Assembly (NCBI GenBank): GCA_902786855.1
Contig: CADAEH010000004.1
Coordinates: forward strand, 62,001 to 126,000
From: an uncultured Eubacteriales bacterium
GTDB lineage: Bacteria > Bacillota > Clostridia > Peptostreptococcales > Anaerovoracaceae
Reading direction: 5' to 3'
Length of the DNA: 64,000 nucleotides
How positions within the stretch are numbered: position 1 is the first letter of the stretch; each line of letters starts with the position of its first letter. The position numbers and the translations under genes are program-made. Positions 1,705 through 59,865 of the stretch are shown piece by piece. Under the pieces are notes generated by a model. It ran no database searches. It was given only the letters and a program-made list of their open reading frames with translations, and was not told the origin of the DNA.

Positions 1705-3504
1705 CTATGACAGGAGCTGTACAGCTTTACGCGCGGCTGCGGCAGCATCAGGAGTATATGCATCCGCTCCGACTTTGTCACAGAATTCCTGAGTGACCGG
1801 AGCTCCTCCTATGAGGATCTTGACCTTATCTCTGATACCGCGATTGACAGCTTCCTGTACCACTCTTTCTATCTCGCCCATGCTTGTTGTGAGCAGGGTA
1901 GAGCATGCGATCATGCCACAGTTATTATCTATTGCCATCTGAACGAAGTCTTCGGCGCCGACATCACAACCTGCATCGATCACTTCGAGGCCGCTGCCCT
2001 CCATCATGATCTTTACCAGATTCTTACCGATATCGTGCAGATCACCGCGTACGGTGCCGAGGCATACCTTACCGGCGGCTCTGACTTCATTATCGGATGT
2101 CAGGAGCGGCTTGAGGATCTCGGTTGCGGAAGACATGCAGTTAGCTGCACGAAGCATCTCAGGCACGAATACCTCACCCAGCGAGAAGTCTTCTCCGAGC
2201 TCGTTCATTCCGCGTACCAGTCCGTCTGTCAGGATGCTTTGGGCGGAAATGCCTGCTTCAAGGGCTGATTCTACAGCTTTGCAGGTCGCGCTTACAGAGC
2301 CATCCTGCAGGGCCTCTGAGACAGCGTCAAGAAGTGTGCCGGATCCCACCGGCATTTCGCCGGCATCGGAAATAGCAGCAGAAACATTTCCTGAAACGGC
2401 ATCCTTGCTGCTGATAAGCGAGAGATCAGTGCTCTCAGGATCATTCATGCAGGCAAACCTGACCGGTCTGGTGATATCTGCTGCAGATGTCAGCGCGGTA
2501 TAGCGCGGCAGGTGATATCCTGCATTATACTTCCTGATCTCATCATCTATCCACGGATCCACATGCTTATATACAGTACCTGCAAGTCCGTATGTTATTG
2601 AAGGAATGTAGTGACCTCCCGGACAGTATTCGTGAAGTGCATCATGGACATAATTGCGTACTTCTTCTTCTCCGGCATCTTCGCGGTCGATAGCAGCGCC
2701 GATGCCGCCCATGAGGACCATCCTGCCTTTAAGACGCCTCTGCAAGGCAGGAATGTCATTTTCAGGCAGAACGCCCTGCCATACCTGTATGCCTATCTCA
2801 GCCATATCTTCTACGATAGGAGCGAGATAAGAGTCAGCATGATGGATGGCTATGACACCTCTTGAGCGTATATATCCGTAGAAACGGCGATAAGGCTCCT
2901 TATAGAATTCACGCCATGTATCAGGATTCATGAAAAGAGCATCCTTGGTGCCCCAGTCATCGTGCGAGAAGATGACATCGGGCTGCAGATTGTCTATCAG
3001 AGTCTTCACATAGGTCAGACGGAACTCGGTGATGTAATCGATGAGCTCGTGCATCTCATCCGGATGATCATACAGGCTTGTGAGTACTTCCTGGAAAGGC
3101 ATCAGAAAGTGGCACTGTTCAAAAATACCGGTGGCCATAAACCCGGCGACCAGCCGTTCATCGCCGGCAAGTTCTCTGACATGGCTGCGGAATGCGGACC
3201 ATTCAGCCTCATTGCTGCAGTTGGCAACGATATCCGGTGCGTGCACATAGTCACGCCAATGGGTAATATCTTTTATTACTTTGTTTTCTGCAGTGACGAT
3301 CGGCATGGATCCCGGTGCATCTGCAGGCCAGTCTACTACTGTTCCCCACAGATCGGTGATGGTAGCTCCGGGGCGTCTGCCCATGTGCAGATATCCTCCT
3401 ATAGGATCGCCCAGAGCCATCTGCAGTGCTTCATACTGGATTAGCTGACGCTCAGGTCTGCCGTCTTCTTTAAGCAGTTCAAGAAATATCTCTTTTGCTG
3501 TCAT
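1705..3504 (-). CDS. UroD-type methyltransferase fused to a corrinoid-binding domain
   Basis: The protein has 599 residues. Residues 1 to about 345 resemble the uroporphyrinogen-decarboxylase/MtaA methyltransferase superfamily. After a linker come a helical cap (about 375-450) and a Rossmann B12-binding domain (about 455-590) carrying the GDLHDIGKN signature, whose His is the lower cobalt ligand in MtaC/MetH-type corrinoid proteins. In known methyltransferase systems the corrinoid protein and the UroD-type enzyme are usually separate chains; here they are one. I chose the ATG at 3504 (MTAKEIFLELL) because it matches the family N-terminus and has AAGG nine bases upstream; the frame stays open to 3576, where it would overlap the upstream gene. 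Likely role: moving methyl groups between a methylated substrate or folate and an acceptor. The substrate cannot be read from sequence. Confidence 0.85.
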   Translation of the reverse strand: MTAKEIFLELLKEDGRPERQLIQYEALQMALGDPIGGYLHMGRRPGATITDLWGTVVDWPADAPGSMPIVTAENKVIKDITHWRDYVHAPDIVANCSNEAEWSAFRSHVRELAGDERLVAGFMATGIFEQCHFLMPFQEVLTSLYDHPDEMHELIDYITEFRLTYVKTLIDNLQPDVIFSHDDWGTKDALFMNPDTWREFYKEPYRRFYGYIRSRGVIAIHHADSYLAPIVEDMAEIGIQVWQGVLPENDIPALQRRLKGRMVLMGGIGAAIDREDAGEEEVRNYVHDALHEYCPGGHYIPSITYGLAGTVYKHVDPWIDDEIRKYNAGYHLPRYTALTSAADITRPVRFACMNDPESTDLSLISSKDAVSGNVSAAISDAGEMPVGSGTLLDAVSEALQDGSVSATCKAVESALEAGISAQSILTDGLVRGMNELGEDFSLGEVFVPEMLRAANCMSSATEILKPLLTSDNEVRAAGKVCLGTVRGDLHDIGKNLVKIMMEGSGLEVIDAGCDVGAEDFVQMAIDNNCGMIACSTLLTTSMGEIERVVQEAVNRGIRDKVKILIGGAPVTQEFCDKVGADAYTPDAAAAARKAVQLLS

Positions 3505-3557
3505 CTCTGTAACCTTGTCCCTTTCACAGACAGAGCGATCGTTTAAAGCTCTGCTTT

Positions 3558-4118
3558 TCAGTCTATAAGTATGCATGATGTAAAAGTCATCGTGCCGCTT
3601 CCGTAGTTATAACCCAATCCGGACCGTGTGCAGACATCGCTCACCAGCAGGCCATATGCCTCCATCGACGGCCAGAGCTTGTCAGGATGACGGCAAGGCC
3701 TGTCAGGATATGTGCACTTACGGCATCTTTTGCAGGCGCCCGCTCCCATTGGCAGACATCCCGGGCGGATCTTGCGTATCTGCCTTACAAGTATATCAAA
3801 ACAAGCCGCGTGCTTCTCAGATATGCTGCGTATCGATGCGATATCAAAATCGTCAGCCAGAGTTCCTGTGGTCTGCACGATGATACCGCGACAAAACCCT
3901 TTTGCCCTTGAAGATATAGCTTCAAGGGAACCGGCGGCAGGCGGACAACTCCAGCTCCTGCCGTAGCTGCGGCAGAGGTCGGCACTGCACATGTCACGTA
4001 CTTCCTGCCTGAACAGCAGGGATTCCATAGAAAGTGAAGCAGCATGTGTGAATCCCGCTTCCTCAGCAAGCTGCAAATAGTCTGATATATTCAGTTCTTC
4101 AGTGGGATTGATAATCAT
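3558..4118 (-). CDS. DUF2284-type cysteine-rich metal-binding protein
   Basis: This 186-residue protein has the DUF2284 cysteine layout: C44 and C49, then the YGRSWSCPP motif with C58, then a ferredoxin-like cluster C129-x2-C132-x2-C135-x6-C142, followed by PSMEAYG and a Gly/Tyr-rich tail (LGYNYGSGT). DUF2284 proteins are uncharacterised but frequently sit beside corrinoid methyltransferases, as here, directly upstream of the UroD-corrinoid fusion with a 53-base gap to that gene's preferred start. A role in cobalt-centre reactivation or electron transfer is an inference. No Shine-Dalgarno is seen upstream of the ATG; a TATAAC sequence lies only 5 bases before it, so a very short leader or a missed promoter is possible. 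Confidence 0.82.
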   Translation of the reverse strand: MIINPTEELNISDYLQLAEEAGFTHAASLSMESLLFRQEVRDMCSADLCRSYGRSWSCPPAAGSLEAISSRAKGFCRGIIVQTTGTLADDFDIASIRSISEKHAACFDILVRQIRKIRPGCLPMGAGACKRCRKCTYPDRPCRHPDKLWPSMEAYGLLVSDVCTRSGLGYNYGSGTMTFTSCILID

Positions 4119-50608: not shown

Positions 50609-51166
50609 ATGTTTATAGTCAGCAGATGTCTTCTCGGTTTCAACTGCAAGTATGACGGCGGCAATAATAAGTGCGATGAGCTGTTAGAATTCTGCAGGAC
50701 ACATGATTATGTCACTGTGTGTCCTGAAACTGCTGCGGGGCTTCCGGCACCGCGTTTCCCTGCAGAGATAACAGCTGTAGAGATGATAGATGAAAAGTGT
50801 CAGTTCACCGTTATGTCAAATGACGGTAAAGATATGAGTGAAGCTTTTGACTATGGAGCAAGGCTCTCCCTTGCTTCCGTACTTACAGAAGCCGGCAGCA
50901 GAAAAGACAGAAAAGGCATCATAGAAGGTGCGATATTAAAGGCTAACAGTCCGTCATGCGGAACGGGCACCGTGTATGATGGTTCTTTTTCAGGTACTCT
51001 GACAAAGGGTTTCGGTGTCTTTGCCGACAAGCTTATCGATGCTTGCCTTGAAGAGAGAAGTAATCCTCATATTTCTGATGATAACAGATTATTTGCCGAT
51101 ACTTTCAGAGTGTGTGATGAGAATAATTTTTCACGAGTGTTCGGCATTCAGACAAAAGCAGAATAA
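50609..51166 (+). CDS. DUF523 family protein
   Basis: The 185-residue protein has the DUF523 pattern: SRCLLGFNCKYDGGNN, VCPETAAGLPAPRFPAEI, and ILKANSPSCGTGTVYDGSFSGTLTKGFGVFAD. Four conserved cysteines (near 7, 12, 44 and 118) suggest a metal or redox site. Function is unknown. TATAAT near 50565 is a possible -10. Confidence 0.9.
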   Translation: MFIVSRCLLGFNCKYDGGNNKCDELLEFCRTHDYVTVCPETAAGLPAPRFPAEITAVEMIDEKCQFTVMSNDGKDMSEAFDYGARLSLASVLTEAGSRKDRKGIIEGAILKANSPSCGTGTVYDGSFSGTLTKGFGVFADKLIDACLEERSNPHISDDNRLFADTFRVCDENNFSRVFGIQTKAE

Positions 51167-51191: not shown

Positions 51192-52919
51192 ATGGTAGAT
51201 TTTAAAGATATTATAGCTAACGAGATTTATAATGACTCTCTGGGACTTACAGTCGATGAGATCAGGGACCTTATAGAGATCCCGGCAGATGAGAAGATGG
51301 GAGACTATGCTTTCCCATGCTTCAGGCTCGCTAAAACACTTCGCAAAGCGCCTCAGATGATAGCTGCGGATATCGCTGGCAGGATATCAGAATGTGAAGC
51401 TTTTGATAAGGTGGAAAATGTCAACGCATATGTCAATTTCTTTATAGACAGAGCATTTTTTACCGGTCAGGTAGTCGATCAGGTCATTCTGCTCGGTGAT
51501 GAATACGGCAGATCTGATGTAGGCGAGGGACGCAAGGTTATCGTTGAGTACTCATCTCCTAACATCGCAAAACCATTCCATATCGGACATATCAGAAGCA
51601 CTGTCATAGGAAATGCGATCTATAAACTGTATGATGCGGCAGGATATGATGTGACCAGGATCAATCATCTGGGAGACTATGGTACACAGTTCGGCAAGAT
51701 GATCGTTGCTTTCAGGAAATGGGGCAGCGAAGAGGAACTCGCTAAGGATCCGATCAAGACCTTACTCGGCTACTATACAAGATTCCACCAGGAAGCAAAA
51801 GAAGATCCGTCTCTTGAAGATGAGGCGAGGGAAGCTTTTGTACGCCTCGAAGCAGGTGAACCTGAGGAGGTTGAACTGTGGAGAAAGTTCAGAGAGTTAA
51901 GCCTCGCTGAATTCAACAGAGTCTACGATATGCTCGGCATCACTTTCGATTCCTATGCAGGCGAGAGCTTCTATTCGGATAAAATGCCGAGATTCATTCA
52001 GGAACTCAAGGATAAAGGACTTCTCATCGAGTCGCAGGGTGCACAGATCGTTGATCTTGAAGCATACGGCATGAGTCCTGCTATGATCACCAAATCAGAC
52101 GGATCCAGCCTTTATGTTACCCGTGATATCGCTGCAGCAGTCTATAGAAAAGAAACATATGATTTCTACAAGTGCATCTATGTAGTCGCTTCACAGCAGA
52201 ATCTCCATTTCAGACAATGGAAAAAAGTTCTGGAACTGATGGGGTACGAATGGCAGAAAGACTGTATACATGTTCCTTTCGGTCTTGTAAGCCTTTCTGA
52301 CGGCGATGACATCAAGATGATGTCGACAAGAGAAGGCACAGTAGTTTTCCTTGAAGATGTTCTGAATACTGCGGTAGAGAAAACTGCAGAAATAATGAAA
52401 GAGAAAGATGCAAAGGGCATCGATATTGAAGAAGTCTCGAAGGAAGTCGGCATAGGCGCTGTTATATTCCAGGAGCTTTCCAACAACAGGATCAAAGACT
52501 ATGTATTCTCCTGGGACAAGGTACTCAATTTTGACGGCGAAACCGGCCCTTATGTCCAGTACACACATGCCAGAGCATCCAGTGTACTCAGGAACGCATC
52601 AGAAGAAGAACTTGAGGCTGTAAAAAGCGGCAGCATAGACTGGAGTTATCTTGAGAGCGACAGCGCTTATACACTTGTCAAGCTTCTGTACAGAGTGCCT
52701 GGTACAGTGATAGAGGCAGCTGATAAATACGAACCATCTATCGTCACACGCCTTCTTGTGGACATCGCACAGGCTTTCAATAAATTTTATCATGACGAAC
52801 ACATACTGGTAGATAACAGAGACGAAAAACTTGCAAAACTGTCTCTCGTTCTCGCTTCAAAAACAGTTATCGCAAATTGTCTGGGACTGCTCGGAATCAA
52901 AGCACCTGAAAGGATGTGA
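51192..52919 (+). CDS. argS: Arginine--tRNA ligase
   Basis: 575 residues. N-terminal Add1 domain, class I motif PFHIGHIRST near residue 127, KMMSTREGT in the KMSKS position (near 375), and the DALR anticodon-binding C-terminus. The usual second Lys of KMSKS is absent, as in many ArgS enzymes. Weak AAAGGAAA ribosome site. No T-box leader is visible in the 25-base gap. Its stop precedes the next gene's preferred ATG by 5 bases. Confidence 0.97.
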   Translation: MVDFKDIIANEIYNDSLGLTVDEIRDLIEIPADEKMGDYAFPCFRLAKTLRKAPQMIAADIAGRISECEAFDKVENVNAYVNFFIDRAFFTGQVVDQVILLGDEYGRSDVGEGRKVIVEYSSPNIAKPFHIGHIRSTVIGNAIYKLYDAAGYDVTRINHLGDYGTQFGKMIVAFRKWGSEEELAKDPIKTLLGYYTRFHQEAKEDPSLEDEAREAFVRLEAGEPEEVELWRKFRELSLAEFNRVYDMLGITFDSYAGESFYSDKMPRFIQELKDKGLLIESQGAQIVDLEAYGMSPAMITKSDGSSLYVTRDIAAAVYRKETYDFYKCIYVVASQQNLHFRQWKKVLELMGYEWQKDCIHVPFGLVSLSDGDDIKMMSTREGTVVFLEDVLNTAVEKTAEIMKEKDAKGIDIEEVSKEVGIGAVIFQELSNNRIKDYVFSWDKVLNFDGETGPYVQYTHARASSVLRNASEEELEAVKSGSIDWSYLESDSAYTLVKLLYRVPGTVIEAADKYEPSIVTRLLVDIAQAFNKFYHDEHILVDNRDEKLAKLSLVLASKTVIANCLGLLGIKAPERM

Positions 52920-52924
52920 ACAAA

Positions 52925-54451
52925 ATGAAGCTTCTGCTTACCACTATTCGTACAGACTGCAAGTATACGGACTATGCCATGAGATATCTGTATTCGATCG
53001 TAGACAGCGAAGATTCTCCGGTCGATGCTGAAATGAAGATCTATGGCAAATATGAACTGGACGGCCGCATCTATGAAGACATCATCTTGGGCAGGTACAA
53101 TCTCATCTACTTCCATTGTGATGCATTGAATGAGAGAAACATCTGCACAGTTGCAGAGATGGTAAAAAAAGCTGCGCCTAGTACTGCTGTGCTGGTAGGC
53201 GGTGAGCAGGTCTCTTTCGGAACCAAGTCATTTATGGCGAGGAATCCATGGGTCGACTATGTGATAAGAGGAGAAGGCGAGACAGTACTGTTCAACTTTA
53301 TCAATTCTGTGATCACATATGACTTCGATTTTGCTAATATCCCCGGACTCGCTTACAGAGACGGAGAAGAGATTATCGTAAACTCCTTCGACGAACCTGT
53401 TGAGGTAGAAGATTTGCCGTTCCCATACGATTCAACAGAACTTCCTTCTGATGTTGTATACTATGAATCTATGAGAGGTGACACAGCAATGGCCTTCTAT
53501 TCACCGTACTATCCGGAGAACAGGGTCAGAACACTCAGCCTCGGCAGAGTCTGCAGGGAACTCAGATACTTCCTGGTGAAGGAAGTCAAAAGAGTAGTAT
53601 TCTTTGACAGATTTTTCAATTACAGCAACGAGAGAGCTTACAGGATATTTGAGTATCTCATCAATAATGACAACGGTGTCACTACATTTGAGTTCAATAT
53701 CGATGGCGAGAACCTTGATGATGAGGTTATAAGGCTTCTCTCTGAGGCAAGACCTGGCCTCTTCGAATTTAATATCGATGTGGCCAGCACCAATGCAGAA
53801 GTGCTTGCATCTGTAGGCCGTAAGGAAAACATATACCAGCTGATGTACAATGTCACCAAGCTGCTGCGTGCTGAAACAGTCAGATGCAATATACATATAA
53901 TAGCCGGACTTCCTAATGAGACAGAGGCGTTGTTCGGTCGTTCCTTCAACAAAGCTTTCGGACTTGCGGAAGGACAGCCGGTCAAGATCGATTTCCTGCA
54001 GCTTTCAAAGGGAACTGAGCTGAGGAACCTTGCGGATAAGTTTGGGTATTTTTCGACCTTTGAGACCCCGTATGATGTGATCTCAAATGATCATATGCCG
54101 GCTATGGATATGATAAGGATCAGGACTGTTGCAAGAGTTATAGATGCATTTATAGGCGAAGGCGGATTCAAGGCTTCTATACCTAGATTCCTGGCTGATA
54201 CAGGAATGCGCCCATATGACCTGTTCGGAAAACTCACTGACTACGTGCATGAAAACGAGCTGGAAAGTAAGATCGGAAAACCTGAGAATCTGGCCAGGAT
54301 AATGCGCGGATACGCAAAGCATGCATATGCGATATTTGATGATGATCTGAAATTCGATGTGCTTACAGGAGCGATCCACGCTGATCTGGAAAACATGGTC
54401 CAGGAGGAAGCTATTATCAAATTCGATCGTGACGGCTGGGATATCGTATAG
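52925..54451 (+). CDS. B12-binding/radical-SAM/DUF4080-like protein lacking the cluster cysteines
   Basis: 508 residues. Residues 1 to about 130 resemble a cobalamin-binding domain (YNLIYFHCDALNERN; TAVLVGGEQVSFG; VIRGEGETVLFNF), the middle is a radical-SAM barrel, and the end matches DUF4080 (LQLSKGTELRNLADKFGYF; DLFGKLTDYVHENEL). Where family members carry RGCPFxCxYCLSS, this protein reads RGDTAMAFYSPYY: the C-x3-C-x2-C positions are Asp186, Ala190 and Ser193. The rest of the barrel is well kept and the frame is open, so it looks like a pseudoenzyme rather than a pseudogene. An ATG at 52925 fits the AAAGGA site better than GTG at 52916, which overlaps argS. Followed by a TPR gene. Confidence 0.85.
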   Translation: MKLLLTTIRTDCKYTDYAMRYLYSIVDSEDSPVDAEMKIYGKYELDGRIYEDIILGRYNLIYFHCDALNERNICTVAEMVKKAAPSTAVLVGGEQVSFGTKSFMARNPWVDYVIRGEGETVLFNFINSVITYDFDFANIPGLAYRDGEEIIVNSFDEPVEVEDLPFPYDSTELPSDVVYYESMRGDTAMAFYSPYYPENRVRTLSLGRVCRELRYFLVKEVKRVVFFDRFFNYSNERAYRIFEYLINNDNGVTTFEFNIDGENLDDEVIRLLSEARPGLFEFNIDVASTNAEVLASVGRKENIYQLMYNVTKLLRAETVRCNIHIIAGLPNETEALFGRSFNKAFGLAEGQPVKIDFLQLSKGTELRNLADKFGYFSTFETPYDVISNDHMPAMDMIRIRTVARVIDAFIGEGGFKASIPRFLADTGMRPYDLFGKLTDYVHENELESKIGKPENLARIMRGYAKHAYAIFDDDLKFDVLTGAIHADLENMVQEEAIIKFDRDGWDIV

Positions 54452-54531: not shown

Positions 54532-55584
54532 TTGGATAAAAAAGACAGGATAAGCAAATATCTGATTCCTCTCAATAGCAACATGATGTTCGGTGAGCTG
54601 AGTCCTGAGTTCCTGCACGCAATGGGCGCAGGTGAGATGCTCAGCGGAATACCTGTTCCGATCAGCGAAGGAGAGAACGGGCAGATAGCCGTCAGATCGA
54701 TAGTGCTGGATATGGCTAAGATCATAGGAGCCGATCCGGACTTTGTTTATGCTGATAGATACCTGACTTATATAAAAGCCGCAGCTGGTCCACAAGCTGA
54801 GCCTATGCTGGTTTCTGAGGGAGCAAAAAAGGCAGATGAAGGTCGATTTGAGGAAGCATGCATGCTTCTCCGCACAGCACTTGCGATAGATCCAAAATCG
54901 CGTGCGGCACTCTACCTATACGGGAGAGCCTGCAAGGCATGCTATGAAGCAGCATCAGAGACAGAGTCAAAAGGAGAAATCACAGAAAACGGAGAGGCCT
55001 ATATAGGTGCTTTCAAGGCAGAATCTACAGACATATTTGAAGTGCTGACCATGATGCATCCTGACTTTGCGATGGGTTACTACTTTCTTGGATATGCTTA
55101 CCTTAATCTTGGACTATACCTTAAGGCAAAACTTACCTGGGAAGATTTTATAAAGTATTCATCCAATGCAGATGAAAGCGGTGCAGGCATCGATGATGAT
55201 CAGATGGATGATCTGAGGCATGAGATATCGGGTATGCTCTTAGATCTTGAGGAACCGGTACAGATCGAGACCGGATGTAACCAGATCATGGGGGGAGATT
55301 TTGCAGGCGGCCTGGATACCCTCAGCCGTTTCAAGGAGGGCAGATATGCAAATTGGTGGCCGCTTTGGTACTACATGGCAGTAGCGGAAGCTTCCCTTGG
55401 CAATGCAGATGCAGCCATTGAAGATTACCGCCGGGTACTTCAGCTCACACCAAGCAACACCGATGTGATGGAAGAGCTGGCTAATGTTTATGAGGCAGTT
55501 GGAGACGCTGTAAATGCGGCAAAGTATAGGAATAAAATAGGTATCATAAATAGCAACAGAAAACAGGACAGCATGCCTTCCTAG
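54532..55584 (+). CDS. TPR-repeat protein
   Basis: 350 residues from a TTG start with AAAGGAG 7 bases upstream. After a roughly 85-residue N-terminal part, tetratricopeptide repeats are clear at about 95-128 (ADEGRFEEACMLLRTALAID), 180-215 (GYYFLGYAYLNLGLYLKAKL) and 280-335 (ASLGNADAAIEDYRRVLQLTP). No signal or membrane helix. Probably a scaffold for partner proteins; the neighbour is the B12/radical-SAM-like pseudoenzyme. A GC-rich hairpin (near 54480-54510) without a good T run separates the two. Confidence 0.82.
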   Translation: MDKKDRISKYLIPLNSNMMFGELSPEFLHAMGAGEMLSGIPVPISEGENGQIAVRSIVLDMAKIIGADPDFVYADRYLTYIKAAAGPQAEPMLVSEGAKKADEGRFEEACMLLRTALAIDPKSRAALYLYGRACKACYEAASETESKGEITENGEAYIGAFKAESTDIFEVLTMMHPDFAMGYYFLGYAYLNLGLYLKAKLTWEDFIKYSSNADESGAGIDDDQMDDLRHEISGMLLDLEEPVQIETGCNQIMGGDFAGGLDTLSRFKEGRYANWWPLWYYMAVAEASLGNADAAIEDYRRVLQLTPSNTDVMEELANVYEAVGDAVNAAKYRNKIGIINSNRKQDSMPS

Positions 55585-59592: not shown

Positions 59593-59667
59593 GCCTCGAT
59601 AGCTCAATGGCAGAGCAACCGGCTGTTAACCGGTAGGTTGTAGGTTCGAGCCCTACTCGAGGCGCCA
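59593..59667 (+). tRNA. tRNA-Asn (GTT)
   Basis: Acceptor GCCTCGA/TCGAGGC, anticodon stem ACCGG/CCGGT with loop CTGTTAA (GTT), T-loop GGTTCGAGCC, discriminator G and encoded CCA. 75 bases with CCA. Confidence 0.97.
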
Positions 59668-59675
59668 TTTTATAA

Positions 59676-59764
59676 GCCGGAGTGGTGGAATTGGTAGACA
59701 CCTGGGACTTAAAATCCTATGAGAAGCGATTCTCGTACCGGTTCGAGTCCGGTCTCCGGTACCA
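59676..59764 (+). tRNA. tRNA-Leu (TAA)
   Basis: Acceptor GCCGGAG/CTCCGGT, anticodon loop ACTTAAA (TAA), a long variable arm (GAGAAGCGATTCTC) typical of Leu, discriminator A and encoded CCA. Confidence 0.96.
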
Positions 59765-59789
59765 CTTCACAAACAACTTTATATGATGA

Positions 59790-59865
<76 letters not shown>

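Follow-up and report, generated by a model that had tools for sequence, protein, structure and literature searches.

In one lineage of oral and gut bacteria, a relative of the B12-type radical S-adenosylmethionine (SAM) enzymes has stayed intact and under selection without the residues expected to hold its iron-sulfur cluster and helper molecules; the catalytic fold seems to serve another purpose than its original chemistry. We analyzed this protein in a 64,000-nucleotide stretch of DNA, hereafter the window, from an uncultured Eubacteriales bacterium (assembly GCA_902786855.1, contig CADAEH010000004.1), in which it is encoded between argS and a gene for a tetratricopeptide repeat (TPR) protein. 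The comparisons described below point to an enzyme that quite probably lost its radical chemistry along with a neighboring enzyme, the product of a gene that we call orf300, and that would live on without catalysis, its pocket altered, as a binding or scaffold protein. That it carries out no radical-SAM catalysis appears very probable from the residues it has lost. Descent from motif-bearing relatives, loss of the motif, an intact frame, purifying selection and the absence of orf300 are all directly legible in the aligned genes and loci.

Descent and spread of the Cys-less proteins

The reading frame is uninterrupted from the ATG at 52925 to the stop codon at 54449-54451, confirming the intact 508 codons reported in the original prediction, which had been made from the DNA letters. 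Pfam profiles matched the protein above the gathering score for DUF4080 (PF13311, 50.3 bits against a cut-off of 22.9) and for Radical_SAM (PF04055, 37.9 bits against 29.5), and the B12-binding profile (PF02310) gave 25.4 bits, under its cut-off of 32.1, which many copies from the same genus exceed. The PF04055 match, together with barrel fold matches from a weak structure model, argues for a radical-SAM fold and ancestry. The protein is 27-37% identical to canonical relatives within its bacterial family, and its residues D186, A190 and S193 share alignment columns with the C-x3-C-x2-C cysteines of these relatives, which bears out the earlier reading of Asp, Ala and Ser at the cluster positions. 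The two conserved stretches quoted with that reading are also well kept inside the Cys-less clade (13-row alignment). No second DUF4080 match, and hence no catalytic paralogue, was seen in the source genome, an assembly of 2.9 Mb in 62 contigs with an estimated completeness of 87%.

We screened 297 genomes of the family, 171 of which have a DUF4080 match at E <= 0.001. The motif was first read in 42 loci and then in additional loci retrieved by position. Merging identical sequences reduced 101 hits to 88 rows, and a tree was built from these with IQ-TREE after removal of the motif columns; locus L091 was excluded from the clade counts. The 39 rows that have lost the motif form a single clade (support 100/100, stem of 0.68 changes per column), nested among sequences with all three cysteines (CCC) and sister to two of them, L046 and L048. 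The clade takes in the window's genus and sister genera, including Mogibacterium pumilum and Mogibacterium timidum. Cluster cysteines are entirely gone from 26 of its 39 rows, whereas 11 rows keep one and two rows keep two; the second cysteine is the most frequent survivor (12/39), and the third is found in none. Within the window's genus, a single copy is present in 45 of 48 genomes, the three genomes without a match being 59-74% complete. Forty-one of these copies have no cluster cysteine and four have one, the third cysteine again being absent throughout. M. pumilum ATCC 700696 and M. timidum ATCC 33093 both read RGVPDTCHYS in the motif region, and the related named contigs number 12 (uncultured Clostridiales or Clostridia bacterium, Mogibacterium sp., M. 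pumilum and M. timidum). As cysteine loss recurs in all 45 genus copies and in named Mogibacterium records, neither chance nor assembly error can account for it. A quick argS tree recovered the same clade (Shimodaira-Hasegawa-like approximate likelihood ratio test, 99) and again placed L046/L048 beside it, in keeping with vertical descent. The stem measured 0.24 in that tree versus 0.68 for DUF4080, showing that DUF4080 evolved faster on that branch. One genome, G091, holds two differing Cys-poor copies (L023 and L045), each with its own argS and TPR gene; the assembly is possibly mixed.

The ratio of nonsynonymous to synonymous substitution rates (dN/dS) was determined by the NG86 method on stop-to-stop frames, short pre-start stretches included. 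It was 0.026-0.081 in the 13 of 16 Cys-less pairs with finite dS and 0.036-0.074 in the three of five canonical pairs with finite dS, values that are rough yet far from 1, dS being mostly >1 and partly saturated. A pseudogene on its way out would be in keeping with the loss of catalytic residues, with the many family genomes that lack DUF4080 (an orf300 orthologue without a strong DUF4080 hit occurs in 99, of which 15 show a weak or partial hit) and with the resemblance of two further copies, in genomes G260 and G048, to eroding genes. The low dN/dS, the uninterrupted frame of every one of the 45 genus copies and the fixation of residues across the clade led us to reject recent decay, which we regard as extremely improbable. 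Computing dN/dS had been proposed in the original prediction as a check, and a close relative with normal cysteines combined with high dN/dS as a sign of recent decay; no such combination was found in our comparisons.

Loss of presumed SAM and cobalamin residues

We compared residues between 41 canonical and 39 Cys-less rows, leaving out seven distant or partial CCC rows. Missing from most or all of the Cys-less rows are P187, K225, H256, E258, E283, G285, Q287, H322, D324 and the S64-x-Y66-x-W68 stretch, and retained are G92-G93, G116-E117, Y180-E181, R184-G185, F231-N232, R299, G328, P330 and G363. The SAM-motif residues E283, G285, Q287, H322 and D324, assigned by alignment and strand order only, are gone in 39/39 rows; the predicted strands 280-286 and 320-325 were taken as beta4 and beta5, respectively. 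In the beta5 region the His and Asp are lost clade-wide, and A-G-L-P-x-E is mostly retained. The names of the ribose and GXIXGXXE motifs follow PMC6231123. By ancestry the protein belongs to the DUF4080 radical-SAM proteins; judged by alignment, without the cysteine motif and without the ribose and beta5 motif residues, it does not qualify as a functional radical-SAM enzyme.

To avoid outcome-based picking, we took every position with a conservation of at least 90% across 40 canonical family rows (eight CCC rows left out, L085 being added to the seven above). There are 141 such positions, and 58 of them, the core positions, reach the same level in 29 sequences that represent other families of the order. 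Five of the 34 order-level loci (L136-L169) were left out, since L136 repeats L150 and the other four, L143 and L147-L149, are incomplete or lie at the end of a contig. We relied on these two sets rather than on a separate 40-position score, which is circular for the clade because its positions were picked as shifting. Among the 58 widely conserved positions, 27 are kept in fewer than half of the Cys-less rows and 21 of those in fewer than a tenth; the corresponding numbers for the 83 family-only positions are 27 and 15. The broad core is thus hit at least as hard as the family-only positions, which is not expected from plain divergence. Median identity to the reference L049 is similar in other-family sequences and Cys-less rows (40% and 37%), with medians of 111 and 84 positions kept of 141, respectively.

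A phmmer search aligned the canonical SCYIWN stretch with SCYVWN of TokK and of CysS, at which place the window protein has HCDALN. The Trp of this stretch, W68, aligns with TokK W76, which lies under cobalamin at its lower face (PMC9692996), and is lost in 39/39 Cys-less rows. The loss of this Trp alone is not decisive for cobalamin, because TokK tolerates some W76 substitutions; TsrM has a different residue at that position, so that the Trp criterion is a TokK-type feature only (both from PMC9692996). The N-terminal domain had originally been described as kept and cobalamin-like. This is true of the fold only, because the residues expected to contact cobalamin are gone.

The structure model had a mean predicted local distance difference test score (pLDDT) of 71.4 and a predicted template modeling score of 0.47, with pLDDT below 50 in the cluster loop and the SAM-side loops; statements about the pocket thus depend on the alignment. 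Fold comparison with this weak model ranked TokK, OxsB, CysS, TsrM and MgmA on top, at root mean square deviations of at least 12 Å over two domains, and Foldseek placed CysS, TokK and OxsB first. Structure prediction, proposed earlier as a way to look for a kept pocket, yielded matches to radical-SAM/B12 folds. The N-terminal domain superposed on corrinoid-protein domains at 2.3-2.7 Å over 118-124 residues, and response-regulator domains match it about as well.

The window also encodes a 623-residue protein (1705-3576, minus strand) with the corrinoid motif DLHDIGKN and a PF02310 score of 85.2 bits. We take it to be a methyltransferase of the URO-D (uroporphyrinogen decarboxylase) type fused to a corrinoid-binding domain. 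The organism thus seemingly still uses corrinoids, and loss of B12 use by the organism is not favored as the cause of the changes. In some genus genomes, such as G135, PF02310 is found only in the DUF4080 protein. We considered whether the Cys-less protein might still bind cobalamin, as a corrinoid carrier or sensor without radical-SAM chemistry. The retained Rossmann domain and its fit to corrinoid-protein domains, the preservation of G92, G93, G116 and E119, and the apparently intact corrinoid protein in the window are in line with such a role. However, S64, Y66 and W68 are lost in 39/39 rows and P94 in 38/39, and response-regulator domains match the N-terminal domain about as well; we consider a carrier or sensor unlikely.

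Several former cofactor positions did not simply become variable. Y62 is present in 39/39 Cys-less and 0/41 canonical rows; the former S64 is His in 37/39 Cys-less rows, the former Y66 Asp or Asn in 38/39, the former G285 Asp or Glu in 39/39, the former H256 Glu in 29/39 and the former E283 Asn in 30/39. Outside these positions, C210 is found in 35/39 Cys-less and 0/41 canonical rows, and E212 and R214 are almost fixed in the clade and minority residues in canonical rows. E212 and N302 occur in 39/39 Cys-less rows as against 44% and 41% of canonical rows, respectively, and Y304, Y308 and Y468 are likewise conserved in the clade and absent or in the minority in canonical rows. The conserved polar set of His64, Asp/Asn66, the acid at 285, Glu256 and Asn283 suggests that a new ligand or reaction might be accommodated on a cofactor-free B12-radical-SAM scaffold. 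The former cobalamin/SAM site would then have been rebuilt rather than emptied, and could bind another small molecule or a metal or catalyze a non-radical reaction, a possibility that we find plausible but on the unlikely side.

A different cluster or metal, held by non-Cys or relocated ligands and still supporting redox or SAM chemistry, could be envisaged from C210 (35/39), H64 (37/39) and the acid at 285 (39/39), and a non-Cys contact has a precedent in csDUF512, whose Asp112 contacts the unique iron of the radical-SAM cluster (PMC11659888). Nevertheless, positions 186, 190 and 193 vary widely across the clade, the SAM-motif residues are gone, and the clade alignment contains no conserved replacement Cys triad anywhere. 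Relocation of the cysteines to another loop, raised in the original prediction as an objection to its own reading, was rejected for lack of such a triad, and we hold persistence of redox or SAM chemistry on other ligands to be very unlikely. We infer that the Cys-less protein performs no radical catalysis and binds neither cofactor. With its motif-bearing ancestry and purifying selection, it is a pseudoenzyme as far as sequence can tell.

The absent neighbor orf300 and the TPR gene

The canonical gene order in the family is mutS2 - tudS - argS - orf300 - DUF4080 - TPR, in which tudS was identified by PF04463 and the genes named mutS2 and argS are presumed to be such from their sequences. The mutS2-tudS-argS order, with a thiouracil desulfurase/DUF523-type gene beside argS, occurs in most loci that extend far enough. 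orf300 encodes a second radical-SAM protein of ~300 residues (PF04055, 4.6e-20) that matched no NCBIfam family over its cut-off. It lies directly upstream of DUF4080 on the same strand in 42/48 CCC rows, the six others being L065, L078 (contig end), L085 and L092-L094. In contrast, orf300 is absent from all 39 Cys-less loci, and argS abuts DUF4080 in all 38 Cys-less rows with upstream DNA; 23/23 additional genus loci have this arrangement too. Genome-wide, at a threshold of E < 1e-85, 211/297 family genomes have an orf300 orthologue, including 0/32 Cys-less genomes versus 111/115 other genomes with a strong DUF4080 hit; among these 115, the motif was read in 75, all CCC, and 40 were assumed to be canonical. 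The four exceptions (G007, G022, G094 and G187) have <500 bases of contig upstream of DUF4080, G007 lying at a contig end. This joint absence is suggestive of a joint role of the two radical enzymes within this family.

Several observations weigh against the reading that radical chemistry was lost along with orf300, besides the partly saturated dS and the poorly modeled pocket loops noted above. The link between orf300 and the cysteines comes down in essence to a single event on a single long branch. Outside the family, 10 of 24 genomes with DUF4080 lack an orf300 match at 1e-20, and the motif, which was read in nine of these 10, is CCC in all nine. A general rule that catalytic DUF4080 needs orf300 was thus rejected, and any dependence is local. 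The copy in G048 (L085) keeps three cysteines in the altered setting RDCLYTC, with 31/58 core positions, no orf300 and an open frame. The DUF4080 tree did not reject a single event shared with the main clade (approximately unbiased test, p 0.329). G048 is therefore not established as a clean independent replicate, although its independence is suggested by the argS tree, which places both G048 and G260 away from the Cys-less clade. The copy in G260 (L091) has the opposite pattern, the motif region being deleted with orf300 still there, 27/58 core positions kept and the frame open; its sharing the event of the main clade was rejected by the DUF4080 tree (p 0.028). The association of orf300 with the cysteines thus amounts to one sure event, one possible replicate (G048) and one counter-example (G260). 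Finally, E212, N302, Y304 and Y308 are not exclusive to the clade but present in a minority of canonical rows too.

The TPR gene is directly downstream in 39/39 Cys-less rows, 43/48 CCC family rows and 16/20 loci of other families. The clade that the original prediction had proposed to look for, Cys-less with a conserved argS/TPR neighborhood, indeed exists (argS 38/38). We asked whether the protein forms a complex specifically with the TPR protein, in which it would be a scaffold or substrate adaptor subunit; this is a narrower form of the explanation we prefer. Such a complex would fit the constant downstream position, the preservation of 53 of the 55 conserved TPR positions across the Cys-less clade and the clade-conserved helix positions of the Cys-less protein. 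The TPR gene was present in each of the 38 genomes tried, including 20 that have no DUF4080 match, so that its dependence on DUF4080 was rejected and its proximity does not prove binding; we therefore view the complex as a tentative, though sizeable, possibility. Coordinates were listed for 13 of the genomes that have orf300 but lack a strong DUF4080 hit, and in 12 of these 13 no more than 300 bases separate orf300 from a TPR gene on its own strand; orf300 and the TPR gene, with or without DUF4080, make a candidate two- or three-gene system. The earlier proposal of a pseudoenzyme kept for binding thus stands in that a clade-wide, selected protein has kept its fold without the cluster ligands, and a partnership with the TPR protein would be compatible with the data.

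From the gene order and the homology to TokK and CysS, the ancestor would have been a cobalamin-type (class B-like) radical-SAM enzyme, encoded between orf300 and the TPR gene and working with the orf300 product near the TPR protein. orf300 and the third cluster cysteine, along with most SAM and cobalamin contacts, would have disappeared on one long stem before the Mogibacterium-type radiation, and the remaining cysteines branch by branch. The Rossmann domain, the barrel, the DUF4080 tail and some surfaces would have been kept under strong purifying selection, with the protein acquiring conserved residues of its own at former cofactor positions (H64, D/N66 and D/E285) and in the helices C210-E212-R214 and N302-Y304-Y308. 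At present it most likely serves, without catalysis, to bind a small ligand or a partner, which could be the TPR protein, the former substrate or both; this role is our guess.

Known relatives and features of the window

The direct relatives are the canonical DUF4080 proteins of the same and related bacterial families, which share the domain order and a similar argS/TPR neighborhood but have their own CX3CX2C motif and SAM and cobalamin residues and, in this family, usually lie beside orf300. The best solved relatives are TokK and CysS by sequence and TokK, CysS, OxsB and TsrM by fold; a SCYVWN-type stretch is common to canonical DUF4080, TokK and CysS. Those solved proteins are catalytic, whereas the window protein has lost the cluster cysteines, the ribose-motif residues and the Trp that lies beneath cobalamin. 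It differs likewise from the heme chaperone HemW, which retains the cluster motif. HemW-type proteins are shown or named as heme-binding chaperones of the radical-SAM superfamily (PMC10320005), as is Campylobacter jejuni CgdH2 (Cj0363c), a precedent for a binding role that keeps the motif lost here. Pseudoenzymes in general retain the fold and lose conserved catalytic motifs (PMC10211241), as the window protein does. Among the open-access papers searched we found none on DUF4080 function or on radical SAM in Mogibacterium, nor a described radical-SAM pseudoenzyme; subscription papers lay outside this scope, and we make no claim about the literature as a whole. Because the loss is clade-wide and intermediates with two, one and zero Cys survive, the clade offers a natural series on the use of a cofactor-free fold. 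Profile-based annotation may label such proteins as enzymes, and motif-based surveys would miss them.

Table 1. Position of the Cys-less DUF4080 gene, its altered regions and its neighbors in the window
Feature	Position	Strand	Basis or remark
2-thiouracil desulfurase/DUF523 homologue (PF04463), upstream context	50609..51166	+	Pfam, synteny
argS (presumed)	51192..52919	+	Translation; syntenic in clade
argS/DUF4080 junction, orf300 site in most other family members, empty here	52920..52924	+	Locus comparison
Cys-less DUF4080/B12-type radical-SAM homologue, 508 aa	52925..54451	+	ATG start; GTG 52916 is a possible alternative
Residues 62-69, YFHCDALN	53108..53131	+	Canonical C-F-S-C-Y-I-W-N; alignment with TokK SCYVWN
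Former CX3CX2C cluster loop, D186-T-A-M-A190-F-Y-S193	53480..53503	+	Alignment with canonical homologues
Residues 210-214 (C-R-E-L-R), helix 206-218	53552..53566	+	Residue counts, predicted secondary structure
Residues 283-288, beta4/ribose-motif region	53771..53788	+	Canonical E-x-G-x-Q-S to N-x-D-x-A-S; by alignment
Residues 322-332, beta5 (GXIXGXXE) region	53888..53920	+	Canonical H-x-D-L-I-A-G-L-P-x-E; by alignment
DUF4080 C-terminal domain, residues 372-496	54038..54412	+	Pfam
TPR-repeat protein, 350 aa, conserved downstream gene	54532..55584	+	TTG start; translation, Pfam, synteny

Farther downstream, the window carries a tRNA Asn-Leu-Met cluster at 59593-59865 on the plus strand.
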